From: Bacteroidia bacterium | GTDB taxonomy: Bacteria > Bacteroidota > Bacteroidia > Flavobacteriales > Flavobacteriaceae | Reading direction: 5' to 3' | Length of the DNA: 64,000 bases | NCBI GenBank assembly: GCA_030427735.1 | Contig: JAUIBP010000005.1 | Coordinates: 186,001-250,000 of the forward strand | In this document: one piece after another, positions 43,452 to 48,663 of the stretch | Layout of the letters: each line of letters begins with the position of its first letter | How positions within the stretch are numbered: position 1 is the first letter of the stretch | Made by a program: the position numbers and the translations under genes | Notes under the pieces: model-generated | Database searches by the model: none | What the model was told of the DNA's origin: nothing | The model's input: the letters and a program-made list of their open reading frames with translations, nothing else

Positions 43452-45188
43452 ATGAAATCCCTAAAGTCTGTTTTACTTAGTCTTGTAATAACCACTGGTT
43501 TACACGCCCAAATTAACAATACGTTTTTAACACATTTCGAAAAAAGTAACGGTACCGAAACCGCAACGTATCAGGAAGTGATTCAGTTTTACGAAACTTT
43601 AGCTAAATCGTTTCCTGAAATTCACATAGAAACTGTTGGACAAACCGATTCTGGCAAACCGCTTCACCTTATCACTTTAAATCCCGATAAGGATTTCAAT
43701 TTTTCTGAAATCGGAGAAGATAAACGTATTTTACTCATCAATAACGGCATTCATCCAGGTGAAAGCGATGGTATAGATGCCACCATGATGCTGTTTCGCG
43801 ATCTTGCTCAAGGTAAAATTAAAATGCCCAAACACACGGTGTTAACCACCATTCCTATATATAATATTGGTGGAAGTCTAAACCGAAACTCAAGTTCCAG
43901 AACCAATCAAAACGGTCCTAAAGATTACGGGTTTAGAGGCAATGCCAGAAATTACGATTTAAATCGCGACTTTATTAAAAGCGACACCAAAAACAGTAAA
44001 GCGTTTGCCGAAATTTTTCATAAAGTAAATCCCGATGTGTTTATAGACAACCACGTAAGCAATGGTGCCGATTACCAATATACACTCACCCATTTATTTA
44101 CCCAACACAATAAATTAGGTGGCGATTTAGGTAACTACCTACACACCCAAATGATGCCTGAATTAGAACAACAACTTGCCGCTAAAAACTGGGACATTAC
44201 CCCTTACGTAAACGTTTTTAATCAGGTTCCTGAAATTGGATTTAGCCAGTTTATAGATCACCCAAGATATTCCACCGGATATACAACCTTGTTTAACACG
44301 TTGGGTATGATGGTTGAAACCCACATGCTGAAACCTTATAAACAACGTGTTGAAGGCACTTACGAACTGATGATAAGCATGATTGATTTAATTGAAAAAG
44401 ATTACAAAACAATAAAAGTATTACGCGACCAAGCCAATCGCACTTTTGCAAATACTAAAACCTATCCGCTAAATTGGGTTGTAGACACCACTAAAAGCTC
44501 GACGCTTCAATTTAAGGGTTTTGAAGGCAGTTACACGACTAGCAAAATTACAGGCTTAAAACGTTTACAATACGACCGCAACAAACCGTTTACCAAATCT
44601 GTAACCTATCAAAATTACTTTAAATCCACTACAAGTATAAATATCCCGAAAGCTTACATAATTCCGCAAGGCTGGTATCCTATAATCGCGTTATTTGAAT
44701 TGAATCAGGTAAAAATGAAACCGCTAGAAACCGATCAAACATTTTTGGTTGAAGCTTATAAAATTGAAGATTTTGAAACTTCGGAAACTCCTTACGAAGG
44801 CCATTATCTACACAAAAACACCAAAATATCTTCAAAAACCGTATCTAAAACCTTCCGAACTGGCGACATTTACATCGAAACCAACCAACCTGCCATTCGC
44901 TACTTATTAGAAACTTTAGAGCCTCAAGCCGTCGATTCGTTTTTCAACTGGAATTTCTTCGACAGTATTCTTCAGCAAAAAGAACATTTTTCGCCGTATG
45001 TCTGGGAAGATTTAGCTTTAGAGCTCTTAAACAACAATCCCGAACTCAAAGCCGAATTTGAAGCAAAACAACAAACAGATTCCGATTTTTCAAAAAATTG
45101 GTATGCGCAATTAGACTGGCTTCACAAACACAGCAAATATTACGAAACGACACATTTACAATATCCTGTATACCGACTCAATCATTAA
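43452..45188 (+). CDS. M14-family zinc carboxypeptidase
   Basis: The 578-residue protein has a signal peptide (LKSVLLSLVITTGLHAQ) and an M14 domain: NNGIHPGESDGIDATMM (zinc ligands His and Glu), NYDLNRDFIKSDTKNSKAF, FIDNHVSNGADYQYTL (third ligand His), and the catalytic Glu in LGMMVETHMLKPY. The C-terminal half (about 330-578) is not part of the peptidase and holds beta-rich sequence. The substrate cannot be read, but it should act on periplasmic or extracellular peptides or carbohydrate-peptide linkages. The next gene, the ATP-grasp RimK-like gene, starts 117 bp downstream with its own -7 box. Confidence 0.87.
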   Translation: MKSLKSVLLSLVITTGLHAQINNTFLTHFEKSNGTETATYQEVIQFYETLAKSFPEIHIETVGQTDSGKPLHLITLNPDKDFNFSEIGEDKRILLINNGIHPGESDGIDATMMLFRDLAQGKIKMPKHTVLTTIPIYNIGGSLNRNSSSRTNQNGPKDYGFRGNARNYDLNRDFIKSDTKNSKAFAEIFHKVNPDVFIDNHVSNGADYQYTLTHLFTQHNKLGGDLGNYLHTQMMPELEQQLAAKNWDITPYVNVFNQVPEIGFSQFIDHPRYSTGYTTLFNTLGMMVETHMLKPYKQRVEGTYELMISMIDLIEKDYKTIKVLRDQANRTFANTKTYPLNWVVDTTKSSTLQFKGFEGSYTTSKITGLKRLQYDRNKPFTKSVTYQNYFKSTTSINIPKAYIIPQGWYPIIALFELNQVKMKPLETDQTFLVEAYKIEDFETSETPYEGHYLHKNTKISSKTVSKTFRTGDIYIETNQPAIRYLLETLEPQAVDSFFNWNFFDSILQQKEHFSPYVWEDLALELLNNNPELKAEFEAKQQTDSDFSKNWYAQLDWLHKHSKYYETTHLQYPVYRLNH

Positions 45189-45305: not shown

Positions 45306-46751
45306 ATGAACAAATACATTGTTGTCAATCAACCTGAAAAATGGAATTTTTCGATTGAGAATATTACAGTAATCTCTGCCCAAGATTACCTTACCAATCC
45401 AGAATACGCCTTAGTAAAAAAAGCAAGAATTTTCAATTTATGTAAAGATTATTCGTACCAATCTAAAGGGTATTACGTATCGCTTTTAGCAGAAGCTCGC
45501 GGGCATTTACCTATACCAACGGTAAAAAACATTGTCGATTTAAAAGCTTTAAAACTGGTTAGAATTGTATCGGATGAGTTTGACGATATCATTCAGCACA
45601 GCTTAAAAAACATAAAATCACAAGACTTTACCCTTAGCATTTATTTTGGACAAAATGTAGCGCAAAAATATAAAGAACTAAGCCTGTTGTTTTACAAACA
45701 TTTTCAGGTACCTTTTTTACGTGTTAAATTTAACCACACCACAAAGTGGCACATACAAAGTATAAAGGCCATTTCGGAATCCGAAATACCATCGGAACAC
45801 ATCGAAAGCGTTCAGGAATTCGCTAATCAGTACTTTTCTAAAAAACGTTACGATATCCCGAAATTGAACAAAAGCGATTTCGATTTAGCCATATTAGTTA
45901 ATCCAAAAGATCCGGCACCACCAAGCAACACGAAAGCCTTAAAAAAGTTTATCGATCTTGCTGAAAAAATGAATATTTACGCCGAATTGATAGAACCTAA
46001 AGACTTATCGCGTCTATCATCTTTCGATGCTTTATTCATTCGCCAAAGTACCGAAGTTAATAACGAAGCTTACGCCTTTGCCCGAAAAGCACAACAAGAA
46101 GGTATTGCCATTGTAGACTATCCTGATGCCATTTTAAAATGCTGCAACAAAGTCTATATGGCAGAAGCTTTGCAAAATGCGAACATTCCAACACCAAAAA
46201 CACTTATTGTGCATAAGGACAATAAACATTTGGTTTTAGACACTGTTGGTTTGCCTTGCGTGTTAAAAGCACCCGATTCTACATTTTCGTTTGGCGTAAA
46301 AAAAGCAAAAACAGAACGCGAGTATCAGGATTTGGTCAATAACATGTTAAAAGAATCAGATCTCATTATCGCGCAAGAATTTTGTCCGTCAGATTACGAT
46401 TGGCGTATTGGCATTTTAGATCACAAACCTTTTTTCGCCTGTAAATATTATATGGCAAAAGGCCATTGGCAAATTTACAACTGGAATGCTAAAAAGAAAA
46501 CCGACCAAGATGGCGACGCCGAATGTGTCCCTATAGAGTCTGTACCAAAAAACGTTTTGAAGATGGCTATAAAATCGGCGAAACTTATCGGTTCAGGACT
46601 GTATGGCATCGACATTAAAGTGGTTAACAACACCCCAATGGTAATTGAAATTAACGACAACCCCAACATCGATTTTGGTGTAGAAGACGCCTATTATGGC
46701 GACACGGTTTACACTGAAATTTTAACAGCTTTAAAAACACGCTTAGACTAA
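45306..46751 (+). CDS. RimK-like ATP-grasp amidoligase with RLAN-type N-terminal domain
   Basis: The 481-residue protein has an N-terminal region of about 190 residues (YIVVNQPEKWNFSIENITVI, split as YIVVNQPEKW; YSYQSKGYYVSLLAEARGH), matching the RimK-like N-terminal domain, and a C-terminal ATP-grasp domain: CNKVYMAEALQNANIPTPKT, GLPCVLKAPDSTFSFGVKKA, LIIAQEFCPSDYDWRIGILD and VIEINDNPNIDFGVED for metal and ATP binding. The RimK/ATP-grasp class joins a carboxylate to an amine with ATP. RimK itself is about 300 residues and acts on ribosomal protein S6; the extended N-terminus places this in the predicted amidoligase branch. The stop is 2 bp before the next gene's start. Confidence 0.88.
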   Translation: MNKYIVVNQPEKWNFSIENITVISAQDYLTNPEYALVKKARIFNLCKDYSYQSKGYYVSLLAEARGHLPIPTVKNIVDLKALKLVRIVSDEFDDIIQHSLKNIKSQDFTLSIYFGQNVAQKYKELSLLFYKHFQVPFLRVKFNHTTKWHIQSIKAISESEIPSEHIESVQEFANQYFSKKRYDIPKLNKSDFDLAILVNPKDPAPPSNTKALKKFIDLAEKMNIYAELIEPKDLSRLSSFDALFIRQSTEVNNEAYAFARKAQQEGIAIVDYPDAILKCCNKVYMAEALQNANIPTPKTLIVHKDNKHLVLDTVGLPCVLKAPDSTFSFGVKKAKTEREYQDLVNNMLKESDLIIAQEFCPSDYDWRIGILDHKPFFACKYYMAKGHWQIYNWNAKKKTDQDGDAECVPIESVPKNVLKMAIKSAKLIGSGLYGIDIKVVNNTPMVIEINDNPNIDFGVEDAYYGDTVYTEILTALKTRLD

Positions 46752-46753
46752 CA

Positions 46754-47977
46754 ATGCATAAAAAATATCATCTTTTCGACGTGTATGGCATCGAGCTAGA
46801 ATATATGCTCGTGCAACCTTCTAATTTAAAAATAGCACCTATAGTTGATGCCCTTTTCACCAAAAAGAAAGGCAAATTAACCTCGGATATTTCCAACGGA
46901 AAAATTGCCTGGAGCAACGAATTAGTGGCGCATGTAGTAGAACTTAAAACCAATGGGCCGACTAAAGATTTAAACGGATTATCGAAACTGTTCCATGAAA
47001 ATATAACCGAAATTAATACGCTTTTAAAACCCCTACAAGCACAATTATTACCAAGCGCAGCGCACCCATTTATGAATCCCGTAACCGAAACCCAACTTTG
47101 GCAACACAGTTACAGCGAGGTTTACGAGCTTTATAACCGTATATTTAATTGCAAAAACCATGGTTGGAGCAATGTACAAAGTGCACACATTAATCTGCCT
47201 TTTTTTGATGACAAAGAATTTGAAAGACTACACGCCGCAATTCGTTTAATATTGCCGCTTATTCCAGGTTTAGCTGCGAGTTCGCCAATACTAGAAGGTA
47301 AAATTACAGGCTTTAAAGACACCCGTTTAGAATATTACAAAACCAACCAAAAGGAAATTCCTGAACTGGCCGGACTTATTATTCCTGAGCGCGCATTCAC
47401 AAAATTAGATTATTACGCCACGATTTTCGAACCGATTAAAAAAGCTATAAAACCTTTTGACACGCACCATATTCTCGATCATTACTTTTTAAATTCACGA
47501 GGCGCTATTGCGCGATTTGACAGGAATGCGATAGAAATTAGATTAATCGATATTCAAGAATGTCCAAAAGCAGACTTAGCCATTTGCGCTTTAATTATTG
47601 AAGTATTAAAATTATTGGTCAATAAAAAACTAGCACCTTTAGCCATGCAAAAACGCTGGGTCAAAGAAGATTTATTCGCTATTTTAAATGATGCTATTAA
47701 ATATGGCGAAACTACTATAATTACAAACTTAGATTACCTTAATGTATTTGATATTGAAAACGCCTGCACCATACAAAGCGTGTGGAAACACCTTTATGAA
47801 TTAGCAAAACCCAACATTCATAAATCGCATTACATCACCATCGAAACGCTTTTAAATGAAGGGACTTTGGCAACAAGAATAACTCAAGCTCTCGCCAATG
47901 ACAATTCTGAAAAGCATATAAAAAAGGTGTATTCTAAACTTGCAGAATGTCTTCAAAATAACACAATGTTTTTATAA
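46754..47977 (+). CDS. GCS2-type carboxylate-amine ligase (glutamate-cysteine ligase family)
   Basis: The 407-residue protein starts FDVYGIELEYMLV, the Glu-containing start of the GCS2 / glutamine-synthetase-fold ligases, with LPSAAHPFMNP, HGWSNVQSAHINLPF, LRLILPLIPGLAASSP and FDRNAIEIRLIDIQECPKADLA (split here) giving metal-binding acids. The family condenses an amino acid with another amine using ATP. It is not the E. coli GshA type, so glutathione is unlikely. It starts 2 bp after the ATP-grasp gene and its stop overlaps the next start (TAATG), so the three genes are translationally coupled. Confidence 0.87.
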   Translation: MHKKYHLFDVYGIELEYMLVQPSNLKIAPIVDALFTKKKGKLTSDISNGKIAWSNELVAHVVELKTNGPTKDLNGLSKLFHENITEINTLLKPLQAQLLPSAAHPFMNPVTETQLWQHSYSEVYELYNRIFNCKNHGWSNVQSAHINLPFFDDKEFERLHAAIRLILPLIPGLAASSPILEGKITGFKDTRLEYYKTNQKEIPELAGLIIPERAFTKLDYYATIFEPIKKAIKPFDTHHILDHYFLNSRGAIARFDRNAIEIRLIDIQECPKADLAICALIIEVLKLLVNKKLAPLAMQKRWVKEDLFAILNDAIKYGETTIITNLDYLNVFDIENACTIQSVWKHLYELAKPNIHKSHYITIETLLNEGTLATRITQALANDNSEKHIKKVYSKLAECLQNNTMFL

Positions 47978-48663
47978 TGAAATTCGTTTTAACTTGCGAA
48001 CATGGCGGGAATGACATTCCGAAACAGTATCAGTTTCTCTTTGAGAATTCAGAAGAAATTCTGGATTCTCATCGCGGTTACGATTTGGGCGCTCTCGATG
48101 TTTTCAAATATTTAAAACCACAGGCAGACTTTTCAAATTTTAGCGAAACAAGTCGCTTAGTCATAGAATTAAACCGATCGTTGCATCATAAAAATCTATT
48201 TTCAGAATTCACAAAAACGGCATCAAAACCCATAAAACAACAGCTTATTGAAAGCTATTACACGATTTACAGACAAGCTGTTGAAAATTACATAACACAA
48301 GCACTCAACAAAGGAGAAACCGTTATACATTTATCGGTTCATAGCTTTACCCCTATTTTAAACACCGTAGAGCGCCATTGCGATGTAGGTTTGTTGTACG
48401 ACAGTTCTATACAAGCAGAAAAAATATTTTGCCATAAATTTAAAACGGAATTAACAAGACAAAACAAAGCCTTACACATTCGTTACAATTACCCATATCT
48501 AGGCAAAGCAGATGGTTTTACAAGTTATTTGCGAAAAAAATTCCCTGAGAATTATGTCGGTATCGAGTTAGAAATCAATCAAAAGTTCGCTAAAAACAAT
48601 GCTATGCCCGTACCATTAAAGCAAACGCTATATAACAGCTTAAAAAATATCCTTCTTAAATAA
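47977..48663 (+). CDS. N-formylglutamate amidohydrolase-like protein
   Basis: The 228-residue protein fits the N-formylglutamate amidohydrolase family: FVLTCEHGGNDIPKQY (His and Glu), DSHRGYDLGALDVFKYL, SRLVIELNRSLHH and LSVHSFTPILN. The family is zinc-dependent and hydrolyses N-formylglutamate or related N-acyl amides. Here it is coupled by a TAATG overlap to the GCS2 ligase, so it more probably trims or edits the amide product of the two ligases than degrades histidine intermediates. Its 3' end overlaps the convergent Nudix gene by 8 bp (48656-48663). Confidence 0.87.
   Translation: MKFVLTCEHGGNDIPKQYQFLFENSEEILDSHRGYDLGALDVFKYLKPQADFSNFSETSRLVIELNRSLHHKNLFSEFTKTASKPIKQQLIESYYTIYRQAVENYITQALNKGETVIHLSVHSFTPILNTVERHCDVGLLYDSSIQAEKIFCHKFKTELTRQNKALHIRYNYPYLGKADGFTSYLRKKFPENYVGIELEINQKFAKNNAMPVPLKQTLYNSLKNILLK

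Follow-up and report, generated by a model that had tools for sequence, protein, structure and literature searches.

RLAN amidoligase neighbourhoods are the closest described counterparts of the locus analysed here. Iyer et al. are said to have defined the RLAN domain in 2009 and to have predicted such neighbourhoods, in which C39-like peptidase, GNAT acetyltransferase and FGase (N-formylglutamate amidohydrolase-like) partners reportedly accompany RLAN and GCS2, and which were predicted to make small peptides. The present locus comprises three coupled genes at positions 45306–48663 of a 64,000-nucleotide stretch, called the window below, from a member of the Flavobacteriaceae (assembly GCA_030427735.1, contig JAUIBP010000005.1, positions 186,001 to 250,000 of the forward strand). 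The order is an RLAN domain joined to a RimK-like ATP-grasp amidoligase, a GCS2-type ligase directly downstream, and then an FGase. The trio shares RLAN, the RimK-like ATP-grasp ligase and GCS2 with the described neighbourhoods but is without C39, and is filed here as a reduced-form member of a predicted but experimentally uncharacterised kind. The preliminary description, made from the sequence alone, saw in it a candidate for an undescribed pathway; as a class, however, it is not undescribed, RLAN being a Pfam family (PF14401). By title and abstract, no experimental study or product of an RLAN cassette was found among the matches listed, in a search outside which most subscription journals lay. 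We read the trio, with a probability of slightly less than one half, as an amidoligase operon on the chromosome whose product, made and turned over by a glutathione-like logic, would be a small N-capped peptide or a modified amino acid.

The first gene (45306..46751, + strand) encodes 481 residues. Its RLAN N-terminal domain (residues 25–170; 45378..45815, +) scores 165.4 bits with PF14401 against a cut-off of 25 (E 9e-49) and holds the conserved FNLCxxYxYQSxGYYVSLLAEAR block, in which Asn44, Tyr51, Gln52, Gly55–Leu60, Ala64, and Arg65 are invariant across 67 aligned rows. The ATP-grasp catalytic part (residues 279–461; 46140..46688, +) is recognised by three Pfam models above cut-off (among them RimK, 9.7e-9, and Dala_Dala_lig_C, 4.2e-10), and Lys282, Lys321, Arg367, Asp436, Glu448, and Asn450, which we take to have the catalytic roles of their RimK counterparts, are invariant across the same number of rows and align with RimK (PDB code 7qyr). 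Locus L031 was left out of these alignments (A5–A8). The AlphaFold model of the protein (predicted local distance difference test score, pLDDT, 90.6; predicted template modelling score, pTM, 0.63) is closest to LysX and RimK among PDB folds compared by Foldseek, and the 50 matches listed are RimK, LysX/ArgX and D-Ala ligases, covering about 300 alignment columns of the 481 residues; a separate match to the RLAN domain was not seen among these 50 rows, which give no aligned range. As for the RimK/LysX ligases (ArgX, MptN, CofF), fold and ATP-grasp residues are alike, but the window protein adds the RLAN domain, and its genome has a separate rimK. The NCBIfam RimK family model gives 71 bits (cut-off 143.4), the RimK equivalog NF007764 gives 31.4 bits (cut-off 331), so that the protein is not the RimK of this genome, and the glutathione synthetase model gives 26.1 bits (cut-off 408). 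An RLAN-type gene is also present on a plasmid: record NZ_CP133752.1, from Pseudomonas aeruginosa, encodes a protein with 38% identity.

The second gene (46754..47977, +) encodes the 407-residue GCS2-type carboxylate-amine (gamma-glutamyl) ligase (PF04107, 7.1e-25), the only GCS2 in its genome. Its AlphaFold model (pLDDT 95.5) places it nearest YbdK (1r8g) and plant glutamate-cysteine ligase (GCL; 2gwc) in fold, with PafA/Dop as a distant fold relative (4bjr, E 2.1e-5). Identity to YbdK, the best fold match, is 15–17% in the fold comparison, and among sequences of solved structures none matched the GCS2 profile at E 0.01. The NCBIfam models for YbdK (49.5 bits, cut-off 176.4) and cyanobacterial gshA (45.1 bits, cut-off 249) both score low. 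The third gene (47977..48663, +) encodes the 228-residue FGase (PF05013, 1.8e-16), which among solved structures matches the hypothetical protein Atu2144 (2odf, 1.1e-34), with N-formylglutamate amidohydrolase 2q7s reaching only 0.0057. Cys7-Glu8-His9, His32, Asp36, Arg60, Asn66-Arg67, His118, and His122 are invariant across 39 rows. PF05013 is common to this protein and to the N-formylglutamate amidohydrolase HutG; the window FGase differs in being coupled to two ligases and in having no NCBIfam match at E 0.01. Because both ligases fall well short of the cut-offs set in NCBIfam and the FGase matches no model, none of the three proteins belongs to the named equivalogs.

All three genes are on the + strand, with a gap of 2 bp between the first and second and a one-base TAATG overlap between the second and third; the three families and the translational coupling given in the preliminary description are thus borne out by the open reading frames (ORFs), Pfam and these junctions. 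Compared with four relatives, nonsynonymous divergence (dN) is 0.09–0.12 for RLAN, 0.20–0.26 for GCS2 and 0.31–0.39 for FGase, and synonymous divergence (dS) is saturated or 1.9–2.9, so that the genes are under purifying selection. This constraint, together with the recurrence of the gene order across phyla described below, argues that the trio is more than a chance arrangement. A defence or phage origin was rejected, as none of the PADLOC or PHROG families matched the three window proteins or one C39 protein at E 0.001.

The distribution of the cassette was followed at 121 RLAN loci (117 distinct, four being duplicates), which comprise the window, 40 contexts from 44 matches in a Bacteroidota sample, and the top 80 of 585 or more relatives from named genomes; partners were counted from six-frame hidden Markov model searches of the locus contexts. 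PF14401 is found in 44 of 395 Bacteroidota-phylum genomes (43 above the curated cut-off) and is patchy in the family of the window itself, with four genomes carrying it and at least 20 without it among the genomes listed. The commonest form, a C39-like cysteine peptidase followed by RLAN/ATP-grasp, GCS2 and FGase, occurs at 46/121 loci in at least six phyla, for example in Pontibacter, Marivirga, Balneolaceae, Fibrobacter, Desulfobulbaceae, Thiobacillus, Nitrosomonas, a Nitrospiraceae bacterium and Planctomycetota. RLAN-GCS2-FGase without C39, the form of the window, is found at 27 loci, and C39-RLAN-GCS2 without FGase at 21 (plus four cut by a contig edge). RLAN stands alone at 14 loci (plus two at a contig edge), with GCS2 only at three (plus one at an edge), with C39 only at one (plus one at an edge) and with FGase at one. 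A C39-RLAN fusion suspected in L150 was rejected, since C39 and RLAN occupy different reading frames there. Among the named loci and the window, the median gap is -4 bp for RLAN-GCS2 (n=66), -4 bp for GCS2-FGase (n=47) and 2 bp for C39-RLAN (n=42), and gaps of at most 30 bp occur in 61/66, 43/47 and 38/42 pairs, respectively. Between partners, pairwise distances are correlated (r 0.65–0.75, or 0.61–0.68 without Flavobacteriaceae; permutation maxima 0.09–0.21). The parts of the cassette do nevertheless recombine, as seen at L095, whose Flavobacteriaceae-like RLAN comes with no matching GCS2. Conservation of gene order outside close relatives had been proposed as a check in the preliminary description, and the same order in at least six phyla answers it.

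Genome-wide counts show how the partners depend on RLAN. At E 1e-20 the GCS2 profile matches 30 of the 395 Bacteroidota-phylum genomes, and all 30 are among the 44 with RLAN; the FGase profile gives 24 strong matches, 21 of them in genomes with both RLAN and GCS2, and two weak ones near 1e-6. Where a partner is missing at the locus it is not found elsewhere in the genome: no GCS2 in 16 genomes, and no FGase in 23 (12 of them GCS2-type), with profiles that were positive in the phylum-wide search. From these co-occurrence counts, RLAN and GCS2 form the core pair wherever GCS2 occurs, and FGase is a looser companion. L188, L189 and L190, from one genus, have a strong FGase homologue and no RLAN or GCS2 match, possibly a relic or a protein with an independent role; the lone FGase of L188 has an aminotransferase and a dehydrogenase as neighbours on one flank, with a Vut_1 transporter on the opposite flank.

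In the full cassette the C39-like cysteine peptidase (PF13529) precedes RLAN, and its Cys15, His171, and Asp189 are invariant across 21 rows. It is absent at all 26 distinct Flavobacteriaceae loci examined, including the window (three of the 26 were assigned to the family by grouping with the window). The C39 profile likewise gave no match at E 0.01 in the whole genome of the window and three others of the same family, with a control genome (G179) at 6e-99, and none at E 0.001 elsewhere in 19 other genomes that have no C39 at the locus, in a search without a positive control. In a quick, unrooted maximum-likelihood tree of 117 RLAN proteins, one branch, fully supported in the Shimodaira–Hasegawa-like approximate likelihood-ratio test (SH-aLRT), sets the 26 Flavobacteriaceae sequences apart, and they sit among C39-bearing relatives. 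The simplest reading of this tree, over the whole of which the C39 label changes 10 times, is that C39 was most likely lost once in Flavobacteriaceae. The trio that the preliminary description treated as a unit is thus indeed coupled, but represents the cassette in reduced form, the usual one starting with C39. The idea that C39 and FGase substitute for each other was dropped, as three GCS2 loci have neither (L099, L110, L148).

A different variant is found when the comparison is extended to Pseudomonadota, where 72 of 398 sampled genomes carry RLAN and 40 of the 75 RLAN matches were analysed in context (L192–L231). Neither GCS2 nor FGase lies within 3 kb in any of these 40 contexts. A GNAT is near RLAN in 39 of them, often divergently transcribed, and 28 of the 39 have a C39 domain; Pfam found GNAT plus DUF3335 (C39-like) in three long Pseudomonadota proteins scanned. 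Named Pseudomonadota such as Thiobacillus carry the GCS2 form, and GNAT accompanies RLAN in 11 contexts of the Bacteroidota sample, being fused to it in the one scanned by Pfam (L059). Over 157 loci, GCS2 is present at 99 (98 without GNAT), GNAT only at 52, both at one (L124) and neither at six, and FGase accompanies GCS2 at 70 of these 99 loci, compared with none of the 52 that have only GNAT. By count the near-exclusion of GNAT and GCS2 is striking; we treat it as a lead, short of statistical proof. The N-acetylglutaminylglutamine amide (NAGGN) osmolyte system combines a fusion of GNAT and ATP-grasp ligase with a linked peptidase. The GNAT-RLAN fusions are likened to that system by description only, and the window trio differs from it by its GCS2 and FGase and by the lack of a GNAT in its vicinity.

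GCS2 enzymes join a gamma-glutamyl group, and GNATs an acetyl group, to an amine, so that both cap an amine, and ATP-grasp ligases form an amide from a carboxylate. Because the partners divide into amine capping and carboxylate amidation, a cap-then-extend logic resembling that of glutathione synthesis can be proposed. Glutathione synthesis by a GCS2-type GshA and the ATP-grasp GshB shows the same pairing of a GCL-fold gamma-glutamyl ligase with an ATP-grasp ligase; the window adds a hydrolase and its ligases score below the cut-offs. The steps and the product that we infer are as follows. GCS2 would phosphorylate the gamma-carboxyl group of glutamate and attach the glutamate to the amine of either an amino acid or a short peptide, and the RLAN/ATP-grasp ligase would activate a carboxylate of the capped compound and add a further amino acid, with the acceptor probably bound by the RLAN domain. 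Because FGase tracks GCS2 and is unseen with GNAT, it is read as the hydrolase for a glutamyl-type product; probably a metal-dependent amidase, it would hydrolyse the glutamyl (N-acyl) amide and recycle the product. In most relatives the C39-like cysteine peptidase would work beside the trio, Flavobacteriaceae keeping FGase, and a GNAT in place of GCS2 would give an acetyl instead of a gamma-glutamyl cap. The notion of a pathway that both joins and cleaves amide bonds, already present in the preliminary description, is retained.

More tentatively, and with rather more doubt than assent, RLAN cassettes in many phyla may make an unseen family of low-molecular-weight peptides with interchangeable N-caps, gamma-glutamyl by GCS2 and cleared by FGase, or acetyl by GNAT, of which Flavobacteriaceae would have the minimal version without C39. 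The core ligase occurs in both phyla sampled, yet has no reported experimental product in the literature searched; with just two ligases plus one hydrolase, the three-gene flavobacterial form offers a compact natural example and so a practical place to seek one. In chemical terms the GNAT/GCS2 swap predicts that the N-cap is exchangeable, which is accessible to mass spectrometry.

Several observations weigh against the small-molecule operon. The neighbourhood evidence does not identify a substrate: no neighbour family that names one was seen, most neighbours being without annotation, and transporters occur at single loci only (MFS at L040 and L149, a Na/Ala symporter at L035, and CitMHS at L124). 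The 80 named loci, as the nearest of the relatives, lean to the type of the window. The exclusion between GNAT and GCS2 needs only three switches on the quick tree, at least two of them forced by supported branches. FGase changes 20 times on the 157-row tree. It is missing from 21 loci with C39 and GCS2, accompanies RLAN without GCS2 at L108, and is found in three RLAN-free genomes of a single genus, so that it may not be tied to a GCS2 product; the independent-pairs test for FGase had too few pairs to decide.

Among other explanations, protein tagging deserves most attention. RimK acts on ribosomal protein S6 and LysX on the carrier LysW. With these two as the closest folds of the first protein, and PafA/Dop as distant fold relatives of GCS2, the RimK-like ligase might add residues to a cellular protein, at its C-terminus or on a side chain, GCS2 might cap or branch the tag, and FGase and C39 remove it; linked hydrolases would fit as well, as RimB is linked to RimK (PMC12239564). 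We consider this unlikely, as the flanks of the cassette at 23 Flavobacteriaceae loci hold no conserved small ORF that could encode a carrier or target, the genome has a separate RimB-RimK operon, and the swap between GCS2 and an acetyltransferase fits the capping of a small molecule at least as well. The same operon bears on the first of the familiar housekeeping roles, which are the modification of S6, the synthesis of glutathione and the degradation of histidine. The names of the families (RimK, glutamate-cysteine ligase, N-formylglutamate amidohydrolase) bring these roles to mind, and the preliminary description would have given up its proposal on them. On contig C13 (241743–242309) a PF05618 protease (RimB-like), the genome's own RimK (219 bits) and an AstE/AspA-type hydrolase lie together. 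S6 modification in Escherichia coli requires a C-terminal Glu, and S6 of this genome ends in ...KLKQKA, without a Glu tail, despite the RimB-RimK operon. The low scores with the RimK, glutathione synthetase and GshA/YbdK models, and the unmatched FGase, point the same way, disfavouring glutathione synthesis in particular, and we give housekeeping almost no weight.

The GCS2 and FGase families both act on glutamate amides, which would also suit detoxification or scavenging of amines, with gamma-glutamylation of an amine by GCS2, extension by the ATP-grasp ligase and release of glutamate by FGase, as in gamma-glutamyl-polyamine pathways. A GNAT-type locus (L138) has an ornithine/arginine/diaminopimelate (Orn/Arg/DAP) decarboxylase next to RLAN, but it is a single locus, and no amine-degrading family recurs among the widest clusters of the 1249 neighbour ORFs, which makes this explanation improbable. 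Graspetide-like maturation of a ribosomally synthesized and post-translationally modified peptide (RiPP), in which the ATP-grasp ligase and C39 would process a precursor peptide, draws on the occurrence of both enzyme types in RiPP loci (PMC8939145). It is highly improbable here: the largest similarity cluster among 123 small ORFs flanking 23 Flavobacteriaceae loci spans three loci, leaving no conserved precursor nearby, and C39 is absent from the four Flavobacteriaceae genomes searched whole. To our knowledge, GCS2 and FGase are not RiPP parts.

The 1249 neighbour ORFs of the 157 loci were clustered, and among the most widespread clusters, the ones inspected, nothing recurs beyond close synteny except DUF155 and a chain of kinase-like proteins that differ in length. 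The widest cross-group cluster (10 loci; 352–926 residues, one a histidine kinase) was read as chance linkage. RLAN has a DUF155 (RMND1/Sif2-like) gene in its vicinity at eight of the 157 loci (L060:5635-6417, L063, L065, L129, L206, L208, L229:4027-4821 and L230; two of the eight scanned by Pfam), three of them GCS2-type and five GNAT-type, none in Flavobacteriaceae. DUF155 is a possible further part of the pathway, and because it occurs in both the GCS2 and GNAT branches, one shared pathway fits. At L138:2080-6270 (Verrucomicrobia), a GNAT-like ORF, RLAN, the Orn/Arg/DAP decarboxylase and a DHDPS-family protein stand in a tight row, a possible hint at a substrate.

Upstream of the trio, an M14-like gene (window 43452–45188) encodes 578 residues and ends 117 bp before the first ligase gene. 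The preliminary description had its position right, but its naming as an M14 carboxypeptidase rests on motifs (HPGE and RNYDLNRDF), and membership in the cassette does not follow. Pfam and NCBIfam gave no family at E 0.01 for this protein, and its best solved structure is an M14 peptidase with an E value of only 0.098. Among 24 loci (the window and 23 named Flavobacteriaceae loci, one of which duplicates a sampled genome), an M14 gene is directly upstream in five (the window and four of the 23), with one to three genes between in four more, and no match was seen outside Flavobacteriaceae in the locus contexts examined. An M14 peptidase as fourth member of the cassette was rejected, being adjacent or near in only part of the Flavobacteriaceae loci, and the gene represents local synteny. 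As a side reading, its motifs suggest that the 578-residue protein belongs to a divergent zinc-peptidase family.

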